Below are positions 43,008 through 45,805 of a stretch of 64,000 nucleotides of DNA, in pieces. Source of the DNA: Nocardioidaceae bacterium (GTDB lineage Bacteria > Actinomycetota > Actinomycetes > Propionibacteriales > Nocardioidaceae); contig JAURVT010000002.1 in assembly GCA_030655315.1 (NCBI GenBank), positions 62,001 through 126,000 on the forward strand, read 5' to 3'. The first letter of the stretch is position 1, and every line of letters starts with the position of its first letter. The position numbers and the translations under genes are program-made. A model generated the notes under the pieces. That model was not told the origin of the DNA, searched no databases, and saw only the letters and a program-made list of their open reading frames with translations.

Positions 43008-44105
43008 TCAGCGGTGCGTGTCGTCCGCGTCCTCGACGCCCGGGGCGGCGGTGCGACGCGAGGGCACGTCGGGGGTGCCGCCCGCGTCGGTCTCGCTGCT
43101 CTGCGTGGCCGAGACCTTGGTCGGGTCGGGGTCGACCTCCTGGCCCTTGGTCTTGCGCAGGCTCAGGACCGCGGTGAGCGCGATGGTCACGATGATGACC
43201 GCCAGGCTCAGCAGCGACGGGATCTCCCAGCTGATGACCGGCTCGCCGCCGTTCAGGAACGACAGCTCGTTCTCGTGCAGGGCGTGGATGACGAGCTTGA
43301 CGCCGATGTAGGCCAGGATGAACGACAGGCCGAGCGACAGGTAGACCAGCTTCTGCAGCAGTCCGCCGAGCAGGAAGTACAGCTGGCGCAGACCCATCAG
43401 CGCGAAGACGTTGGCCGCGAAGACCAGGTACGGCTCCTGGGTGATGCCGAAGATGGCCGGGATCGAGTCGAGCGCGAACATGATGTCGGTGGCGCCGAGC
43501 GCGACCAGCACGAGCAGCATCGGGGTGGCGACGCGCTTGCCGTTCTCCTTGACGAAGAGCTTGAGGCCGTGCCACTCCTCGCCCACGTTGAGACGCTTGC
43601 GGGCGAACTTCAGGATCGCCGACTCCTCGTCGTGACCGCTGTCGTCGGCCTTGTAGCTCTTGACCAGGCCGTAGGCGGTGTAGATGAGGAACGCGCCGAA
43701 GATGTAGAAGACCCAGGAGAAGTTGCTGACCAGCTGGTAGCCGACGGCGATGAAGATGGTGCGGAAGACCAGGGCCAGGATGATCCCGACCATGATCGCT
43801 TCCTGCTGGTACTTCTTGGGCACCTGCAGCGCGCTCATGATGATGATGAACACGAACAGGTTGTCGATGCTCAGCGAGTACTCGGTCAGGTAGCCGGTGA
43901 AGAACTGCACACCGTACGAGCCGCCGTGGTACAGCGTGGTCCAGATGCCGAACGCGACGGCGAGGCCGACGTAGAACGACAGGAAGGTGACGAGCTCCTT
44001 GGTCTTGGGCTCGTGAGGTCGGCGGGACACGATGATCAGGTCGACGATGATGACGCCGACCGTGACGAACACCGTGATGGCCCACTCGGTGGTGGAGACG
44101 TTCAC
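43008..44105 (-). CDS. TerC family integral membrane protein
   Basis: This 365-residue membrane protein has about nine helices. TerC marks are LTEYSLSIDNLFVFIIIM near residue 75 and LGATDIMFALDSIPAIFGIT near residue 205, with aspartates that may bind a metal ion. The C-terminal 40 residues are hydrophilic. TerC proteins take part in tellurite resistance and in manganese or other metal loading of exported proteins. GTG at 44105 has GAGG about nine bases upstream and gives the family N-terminus; a longer frame reaches into the leader. Confidence 0.9.
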   Translation of the reverse strand: MNVSTTEWAITVFVTVGVIIVDLIIVSRRPHEPKTKELVTFLSFYVGLAVAFGIWTTLYHGGSYGVQFFTGYLTEYSLSIDNLFVFIIIMSALQVPKKYQQEAIMVGIILALVFRTIFIAVGYQLVSNFSWVFYIFGAFLIYTAYGLVKSYKADDSGHDEESAILKFARKRLNVGEEWHGLKLFVKENGKRVATPMLLVLVALGATDIMFALDSIPAIFGITQEPYLVFAANVFALMGLRQLYFLLGGLLQKLVYLSLGLSFILAYIGVKLVIHALHENELSFLNGGEPVISWEIPSLLSLAVIIVTIALTAVLSLRKTKGQEVDPDPTKVSATQSSETDAGGTPDVPSRRTAAPGVEDADDTHR

Positions 44106-44133
44106 GTGGAGGGTTCCTCTGGTCGAATGATCT

Positions 44134-44267
44134 GGGGTACCGGAGGTCTCTTCCGCCGCCACGCCGGTGCTGCGCGGGCGACCCGTGGCGCCGGACCGCA
44201 CTGAGGCGGTCGTGCTGACGACGACACGGCGAAAGGAATACTCCCCTCCAACCGGAGAACTATCTCA
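44134..44267 (-). ncRNA. Candidate structured 5' leader of terC
   Basis: About 160 bases separate a -10-like GATAGT (minus strand, near 44267-44262) from the terC start. The leader opens with CCGGTTGGAGGGGAGTATTC (44254-44235) and ends with GACCTCCGGTACCCC (44148-44134). GGAGG and CCGG can pair with CCTCC and CCGG at the far end, enclosing GC-rich stems. TerC-family genes are often under manganese riboswitches of the yybP-ykoY class. I do not see that class's full consensus, so this may be another leader type. Confidence 0.45.
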
Positions 44268-44323
44268 CGAGGGGGGCCCGTCCGCCTCCGCGCGCGAGCG
44301 AGGCGGTCGTCACGGCGCCGCCG

Positions 44324-45805
44324 CTAGGGCGCGGTCGCGCCGCGCGCGTCCTCCTGGGCGACGAGCTCGCCGAGGTCCTTGAGCCGGTGTCGCTGCTGCA
44401 TCGGGCGGGCGAGGCGGTGGTTGCCCTCGAGCACGTCGGCGTTGCGGTCGAGGAACCACCAGTAGCCGGCCGTGAACGGGCACGCGTCGTCGCCCACCCG
44501 CTTCTTCGGGTCGTACCGGCAGCCGCCGCAGTAGTCGCTCATGCGGTCGATGTAGGCGCCGCCGGACGCGTAGGGCTTGGTGGCCATCAGGCCCCCGTCG
44601 GCGTGCTGGCTCATGCCCACGACGTTCACGGGCATCACCCAGTCGTAGCCGTCGACGAACCGCGTCTGGAACCACTCGGTGAGCGCGTCCGGGTCGTAGC
44701 CGCGCTGGAGCGCCCAGTTCCCGAGCACCATGAGCCGGGGGATGTGGTGCACCCACCCGTGGTCGCGCACCCCGCGCAGGACCCCCGACAGGCAGGCGGC
44801 GTCGACGTCGTCGGCCCGCAGGTCGTCGAACCAGGCCGGGAGCGGCTTGCCGGCGTGCAGGCGGTTGTGGGCGCGGTAGTCCTCGCCGAAGTGCCAGTAC
44901 AGCTGCCAGACGTACTCGCGCCAGCCGATCAGCTGGCGCACGAACCCCTCGACGCTCGCGATGGGTGCGTCCCCGTCGTCGTGGCGACGGACGGCCGCCT
45001 CGGCGACCTCGTGCACGTGCACCAGCCCGAGGTTGAGCGGCACCGACAGCAGGCTGTGGGCCATCTGGTCGTCGCCCTGGAGCATCGCGTCCTCGTGCGG
45101 GCCGAAGGCCGGCAGCCGCTCGTCGCAGAACCGGTCGACGGCGGCGAGCGCCTCGCGCCGCGTGACGGCGAACTGGCGGGGCCCGTCCTCCCCCACCACC
45201 TGCAGGCCGTCGTCGCGGATCCAGCGGTCGAGGTCGTCGCGGACCTCGGCGTCGATGTCGTCCTCCCGCGGGCGGTACGGACGCGGGACGTCGAGCCGCT
45301 CGGTCCTCGGCGGGGGCTCGCGGTTGTCGTGGTCGTGGTTCCACTGGCCGCCGGCGGGCTCGCCCCCGTCGACGAGGAGGTCGAGACGGCGGCGCTGGTG
45401 CCGGTAGAAGTCCTCGAGCCGCAGCTGCTTGCGTCCGTCGGCCCAGGCCCCGAACTCGTCCCGGGGCATGGAGAACCCTGGCGTGGTGTCGATCGCGCCG
45501 ACGGCGCCCTCGTCGCGGAGGGCCTCGACGAGCTGCTGCGCGCGCCAGGACGTCGGCTCGAACACGTCGACCGTCTCGCCGAGCTCGGCCAGCGCCTCGC
45601 GGTAGGTGCCCGTCTGCAGGAACACGGCGCCGTCGCCGAGCTCGGCCGCGCGGTGACGCAGCGCGGACAGCGTGAGGTGCAGCTTCTGCCGGTGGTACAC
45701 CCGTCGCCCGAGCACCGCCCTGGACTCCACCAGCAGCACGGGCCGTCGGTCCGCGGTGAAGTGGGGCCCGAGCTGGTCGGCGAAGAGCCATCGGCGGTTC
45801 GGCAC
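44324..45805 (-). CDS. Cryptochrome/photolyase family protein, Fe-S type (PhrB-like)
   Basis: This 493-residue protein of the iron-sulfur bacterial cryptochrome/photolyase group repairs (6-4) photoproducts or senses light. Its start RRWLFADQLGPHF is typical. FAD-domain marks include GWREYVWQLYWHFGEDYR near residue 300 and LMVLGNWALQRGYDP near residue 375. Cysteines for the 4Fe-4S cluster are visible in ACLSGVLRG and YCGGCRYDP, then DACPFTAGYWWFL. It starts at GTG with CAGCCT six bases upstream. It is divergent from sppA. Confidence 0.9.
   Translation of the reverse strand: MPNRRWLFADQLGPHFTADRRPVLLVESRAVLGRRVYHRQKLHLTLSALRHRAAELGDGAVFLQTGTYREALAELGETVDVFEPTSWRAQQLVEALRDEGAVGAIDTTPGFSMPRDEFGAWADGRKQLRLEDFYRHQRRRLDLLVDGGEPAGGQWNHDHDNREPPPRTERLDVPRPYRPREDDIDAEVRDDLDRWIRDDGLQVVGEDGPRQFAVTRREALAAVDRFCDERLPAFGPHEDAMLQGDDQMAHSLLSVPLNLGLVHVHEVAEAAVRRHDDGDAPIASVEGFVRQLIGWREYVWQLYWHFGEDYRAHNRLHAGKPLPAWFDDLRADDVDAACLSGVLRGVRDHGWVHHIPRLMVLGNWALQRGYDPDALTEWFQTRFVDGYDWVMPVNVVGMSQHADGGLMATKPYASGGAYIDRMSDYCGGCRYDPKKRVGDDACPFTAGYWWFLDRNADVLEGNHRLARPMQQRHRLKDLGELVAQEDARGATAP

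Follow-up and report, generated by a model that had tools for sequence, protein, structure and literature searches.

The terC leader of a Nocardioidaceae bacterium as a probable manganese riboswitch of the yybP-ykoY family with the layout of Escherichia coli alx

The closest described systems are leaders of the yybP-ykoY family, which is counted among the motifs found in over 75% of the taxonomic groups studied in PMC3766115. The alx and mntP leaders are described as Mn-sensing yybP-ykoY riboswitches; in medium without buffer, 1 mM Mn raised a reporter of the E. coli alx leader 3-fold and 2 mM Mn raised it 6.5-fold, and alkaline pH raises it as well (PMC9603457). In the crystal of the L. lactis aptamer, the Mn site comprises G9, U39, C40, A41, U44 and C45; the invariant A41 contributes its N7 as a ligand (PMC9190785). 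The crystallised aptamer is a four-way junction (PMC11087558). In Corynebacterium glutamicum, the terC (cg2157) leader was listed as RF00080 with 49.13 bits under the 2013 Rfam model and its 5'-UTR was seen by RNA-seq (PMC3890552), and two yybP-ykoY leaders are mentioned in PMC4046766. For that species, membership of the terC leader in the family has already been published (PMC3890552), the likeness to our locus being that of an actinobacterial terC leader assigned by a table listing; the family is known and the locus is new. TerC proteins themselves have been linked to the loading of exported enzymes with metal (PMC10550928). Among the papers listed in our search of the open-licence literature, none dealt with an actinobacterial terC switch lacking P2.

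The DNA considered here, hereafter the window, is the whole analysed stretch of 64,000 nucleotides from a Nocardioidaceae bacterium. Its reverse strand carries a gene of the Mn2+-handling TerC/Alx family behind a long leader, and the features of both are collected in Table 1. We assign a probability of about 0.93 to the reading that this leader belongs to the yybP-ykoY (Mn2+) riboswitches, has the alx layout and switches translation ON. Mn2+ as the ligand, the ON direction and translation as the controlled step are what we infer by analogy with the described members.

Table 1 Coordinates of the terC leader, its predicted parts and the gene (positions in the window)
Feature	Position	Strand	Remarks
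-10-like box GATAGT	44259..44264	-	putative transcription start near 44251
yybP-ykoY (Mn2+) aptamer, alx-type, without P2 (predicted)	44142..44249	-	model match and covariation
P1.1 5' strand GGAGG	44245..44249	-	pairs with CCUCC 44146-44142; 99.1% of cells paired in alignment A1
L1 motif GGGGAGUA	44239..44246	-	overlaps the end of P1.1; identical in 23/23 and 67/67 aligned leaders
P1.2 5' strand UUCC	44235..44238	-	pairs with GGAA 44154-44151
P3.1 5' strand	44219..44229	-	pairs with 44193-44183; one U.C mismatch, 44224/44188
L3 UCAGCACG	44211..44218	-	CCGG opposite; UCA and final CG identical in 23/23 and 67/67
P3.2 hairpin	44195..44210	-	two-sided changes in 5/5 pairs (23 leaders)
P4 region, variable hairpin	44155..44182	-	two-sided changes in 3/4 pairs (23 leaders)
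Switching strand CCUCCGGU	44139..44146	-	CCUCC forms the 3' side of P1.1; the strand may instead act as anti-Shine-Dalgarno
Shine-Dalgarno region ACCAGAGG	44116..44123	-	pairs with 44146-44139 except C44142/A44120
terC (TerC/Alx family)	43008..44105	-	start GTG 44105; Pfam and NCBIfam matches, homologous starts

The terC product matches Pfam TerC at 1.8e-50 and falls in the NCBIfam subfamily TIGR03718 'R_switched_Alx' with 361.8 bits (cut-off 246.4), and homologous proteins begin at the position equivalent to 44105. With mechanical ORF calling, the gene reaches back to a GTG at 44201, in the same frame and within the leader, giving a longer ORF of 397 aa; an annotator taking this codon as the start would bury the riboswitch within coding sequence. 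Upstream on the same strand, a photolyase-related gene ends at 44324, and a strong GC hairpin (44282-44306) lies between that end and the terC promoter. Compared with an unrelated viral hairpin family, the hairpin scored 19.3 bits, below the cut-off; it is perhaps the terminator of the photolyase-related gene, of a kind without a T run.

The evidence for the structure was drawn from comparison across leaders. We searched 58 genomes, that of the organism itself included, with a 301-base query containing the leader and the start of terC; DNA matches at E ≤ 0.001 were found in 35 of them, many within the leader. Among the loci that were fetched, 25 have a terC gene with GGGGAGTA 120-222 bases ahead, and these leaders share the consensus GGAGG-GGAGUA-(U/C)UCC ... 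CGUCA ... CCGG ... GG(A/G)(A/G)GAGACCUCC, after which the Shine-Dalgarno region often reads CCGGAGG. Exceptions concern P1.1, which is AGGGG in L021 and GAAGG, with CCUUC, in L025, and the last base, which deviates in L009, L012 and L021. In an alignment of 23 of these terC leaders, all from the order of the window (A1), a structure of five helices, P1.1, P1.2, P3.1 (11 pairs), P3.2 and P4, was drawn from inspection and pair counts, amounting to 29 pairs and 667 cells. Standard pairs fill 94.3% of these cells, and 18 of the 29 pairs have changed on both sides; none of 500 shuffles equalled the real alignment on any of five measures, and pairing falls to 37.8-52.3% when the partners are slid. 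A covariance model, R1, was built only from these 23 leaders. In 67 further leaders of the class, 96.4% of the cells are paired and 22/29 pairs show two-sided changes, with 0/500 shuffles as good, figures that lean towards R1 because this second alignment was fitted to it.

These counts exclude the absence of covariation that the sequence-only reading had named as the outcome that would speak against its proposal, a structured terC leader that may be a riboswitch. The proposal itself is supported by the covariation, by homology to E. coli alx, by the gene context and by a co-varying alternative pairing of the Shine-Dalgarno region. Its suggestion that the ends of the leader pair around GC-rich stems holds for the core, GGAGG (44249-44245) with CCUCC (44146-44142), and for the GC-rich stems inside; the outer GGTT and TACCCC lie outside the covarying structure.

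R1 matches the window at 44252-44139 with 92.5 bits, the window sequence itself being one of the 23 from which the model was made. The L1 motif faces GAGACC at 44150-44145, so that the family's combination of GGGGAGUA with GAGACC or AAGACC is present. The outermost pair of P1.2 changes from UA to CG among the 23 leaders, and both outer pairs change in the set of 67; in P3.1, two-sided changes affect 8 of the 11 pairs in the 23 leaders. Another P1.2 register, CUUCGC/GCGGAAG, was dropped by inspection: leaders with CUCC keep GGAG opposite, and therefore only the adopted register fits. L3 contains the UCA with its invariant adenosine, opposite CCGG. This adenosine, A44216, is A in 23/23 and 67/67 aligned leaders, and we take it to be the counterpart of the Mn2+-contacting A41 of L. 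lactis, a placement made with the numbering of PMC9190785 and, like the matching of L1, of UCA..C in L3 and of U44, with the L. lactis sequence.

The P2 helix and the four-way junction are lacking in the window, where the linker between P1.2 and P3.1 has five bases, and the junction of such a leader would be three-way. Among 97 loci, in a survey for which three early pattern matches were read by eye, only L031 and L034, each of which precedes a VIT1 gene, have room for P2. We do not count P2 as defining because the accepted member E. coli alx is also without it. The alx leader shares with ours the TerC/Alx gene, GGGGAGUA, a four-pair P1.2, P3.1, L3 with UCA..ACG, CCGG, GAGACC, the missing P2 and a P1.2-P3.1 linker of four or five bases, and it differs in sequence, GC content and P4 length. 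In E. coli, the alx leader has additional, pH-responsive folds. The L. lactis member (4Y1I) has the same L1 and L3 cores, A41 and the P1.1 switch helix (PMC11087558, PMC9190785), but it possesses P2 and a four-way junction and acts by transcription control, whereas the window has no P2 and its platform is likely the Shine-Dalgarno region.

The leader is almost certainly a manganese-sensing switch of the yybP-ykoY family laid out as in E. coli alx. In 101 kb of sequence, R1 detects the alx leader, which is absent from the model, with a score of 40.8 bits and E 2.2e-8, which shows homology to an experimentally studied member; for E. coli mntP, there was no match at E ≤ 1. The earlier remark that no yybP-ykoY consensus is evident was wrong, as both L1 (GGGGAGUA...GAGACC) and L3 (UCAGCACG...CCGG) are present.

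An important question is whether the silence of Rfam counts against this assignment. Rfam 15 gave no match to the family over the window at gathering score, so that the leader does not exceed the cut-off of RF00080, and none over a 601-base stretch at the leader at E ≤ 10; an Rfam scan of 16 relatives found no relevant family at their terC leaders. RF00080 passed its cut-off in 0/58 genomes (own and related) and in 2/14 control genomes. At E ≤ 10, it has places in 21/58 genomes, of which none among those listed coincides with the terC leaders found; the best two of these sub-threshold places precede VIT1 and GDT1 genes, and the third is L033. Ten sub-threshold places were fetched from relatives, and R1 also matches four of them (L031, L032, L034 and L035). 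In a control on E. coli, RF00080 failed to match alx at E ≤ 1, and mntP scored 41.6 bits, under the cut-off of 45. Since RF00080 also misses alx, its silence at the terC leader means little, and its cut-off was not taken as defining because both known E. coli members fail it. The Rfam search proposed from the sequence alone finds no RF00080 match at the leader, and the control reveals a model blind to E. coli alx; silence read as evidence against yybP-ykoY was overturned by the alx and mntP control. RF00080 ('Manganese', Rfam 15) has the same family name and core motifs as the terC leader, but its printed consensus, with an mntP-like L3 and the GGGGAGUA side unpaired, is unlike it.

The -10-like box recurs in homologous leaders: 66 of 95 have one whose hexamer begins 11-22 bases before P1.1, where shuffles would lead one to expect 16.8. 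A strict sigma-70 consensus scan at the terC leader yielded 0 promoters, and the start of the transcript, probably near 44251, is placed by the recurrence of the box. The message had been thought to begin about 160 bases before terC; a long leader is retained, with a length of about 146 nt as judged from GATAGT. No start close to the gene was found, the start itself being placed by this box.

We propose that at high Mn2+, L1 and L3 would dock around Mg2+/Mn2+ and hold P1.1 (GGAGG with CCUCC), leaving the Shine-Dalgarno region free so that terC could be translated. At low Mn2+, the CCUCCGGU strand would pair with ACCAGAGG and block ribosome entry. TerC made at high Mn2+ would then export Mn2+ or load exported proteins with it.

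Across loci, the 3' strand of the switch helix P1.1 competes with the putative expression platform, in the window with one C.A mismatch. A clear arm is present at 94 loci; at 77 of them, it has an unbroken match of at least 7 of 9 bases within about 110 bases, and the matches most often sit in the segment right before the start codon; the mean anti-SD match is 7.47 against 6.0 in shuffles, and 29 of the 94 loci reach p ≤ 0.05 singly. The partners co-vary, as in CCTCCGAGG with TCTCGGAGG (L017), CCTTCGGTC with GACCGAAGG (L082) and CCTCCAGCG with CGCTGGAGG (L076). When arms were swapped among 97 loci, the sum of longest runs was 629 +/- 8 against 707 observed, with 0/1000 as high, which is not a clean probability because the loci are related; compared with the average of the foreign arms, the native arm of a locus does better in 78/97 cases and worse in 18/97.

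In this respect the window ranks among the weaker examples, since ACCAGAGG faces the CCUCCGG arm with one C.A mismatch, and run-based tests therefore pass over it: an automatic search for an unbroken run reported an unrelated 5-pair match elsewhere (p 0.91), and the best run in a shorter stretch was 4. In the lowest-energy fold predicted for the window (-64.7 kcal/mol), the Shine-Dalgarno region is paired with CCUC.GGU, and the P1.1 5' strand is tied to CCCUCCA directly before the start codon, whereas the best fold retaining the aptamer has -60.6 kcal/mol, a difference such that a ligand could tip the fold. These modelled folds fit a leader that would be OFF without ligand and whose ON state would be paid for by metal-bound docking.

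Could the same aptamer control transcription, through a terminator or Rho, rather than release a ribosome-binding site? Precedents are the L. lactis riboswitch, which attenuates transcription, and the E. coli mntP leader, which is a target of Rho (PMC11087558, PMC11647493). In the window, the only terminator-like site within 43900-44500 lies at 44260-44240, across the 5' end of the aptamer; between the aptamer and terC, the scan, which is blind to Rho sites, detected none. In many loci, moreover, the strand pairing in P1.1 matches the segment just 5' of the start codon, and we consider transcription control unlikely.

Translational control by Mn2+ also has to be set against a riboswitch of the same fold whose main signal is another metal or pH, which we regard as more improbable still. 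The E. coli alx leader responds to alkaline pH too (PMC9603457), and position 44 of L3 is A in 20/23 and 63/67 leaders, compared with U44 in L. lactis (PMC9190785). However, E. coli alx, by inspection, likewise has A at position 44, yet answers to Mn; A41 and the core letters of L1 and L3 are unchanged; and the same fold stands ahead of GDT1 and VIT1 family genes in relatives. The simplest explanation, an ordinary GC-rich leader that folds because of its composition, draws on the lack of an Rfam yybP-ykoY match and on the single-sequence fold, which is ordinary (z -1.23; 23/200 shuffles as good); it is for this reason that the evidence was taken from comparison. The covariation (0/500 in both leader sets) and the significant homology to E. 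coli alx leave it a negligible chance.

The translational ON switch of terC that we favour appears to be one of many related leaders. Among 296 genomes sampled from the class, 176 have an R1 match at E ≤ 0.01 under stricter filters, by which weak matches are lost. For the 67 further loci, terC follows on the same strand in 59 and does not in 8. A pattern scan of named contigs gave at least 119 stretches; among the 80 listed, the names are those of Actinomycetota (Streptomyces, Nocardioides, Micromonospora, Mycolicibacterium, Amycolatopsis, Kribbella and others), and terC lies within 400 bases in 78, while in the remaining two the sequence ends too soon, 220 and 138 bases on. A c-di-AMP riboswitch (RF00379) was observed on the same strand not far past terC in L004 (2781-2952) and L007 (2829-2990), with 58.8 and 55.2 bits.

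Genes other than terC also follow the aptamer. The sub-threshold RF00080 elements L031 and L034, both with P2, precede VIT1-family genes, and L032 and L035, both without P2, precede GDT1-family genes; the two families are Mn/Fe transporters. In three genomes of different families, the aptamer precedes genes for a GreA/GreB C-terminal domain (PF01272; L094 1.7e-13, L103 8.5e-15, L104 2.8e-16); a short ORF may intervene in two of them, L094 and L103. L076 stands before an open ORF of 465 residues with no Pfam or NCBIfam match, L092 before a 288-residue protein without a match, L105 before a similar protein of 291 residues and L101 before a PGPGW membrane protein; L078 has no evident gene after it.

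An Rfam-negative terC leader, until now a doubtful call, is thus very probably a manganese riboswitch. The result is useful beyond the locus, as it exposes a gap in the current Rfam model and provides a list of other genes carrying the same aptamer. Because RF00080 misses the alx/terC branch where tested, annotations based on it may lack Mn2+ switches across a large class; the scale of the possible gap is suggested by the 176/296 sampled genomes that match R1, the comparison with RF00080 itself covering the window, 58 genomes and E. coli. With their recurrent platform of Shine-Dalgarno and anti-Shine-Dalgarno strands, terC leaders could serve as reporters of cell Mn2+ in actinobacteria. More tentatively, and with the odds somewhat against it, Actinomycetia may possess a P2-less Mn2+ riboswitch branch with a three-way junction, to which E. 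coli alx also belongs and which the present Rfam model misses where tested. This branch would widely switch on the translation of terC and would have been recruited to unrelated genes, including those of GreA/GreB-like RNA polymerase factors. If this is true, an excess of Mn2+ may be answered at the polymerase besides by export.
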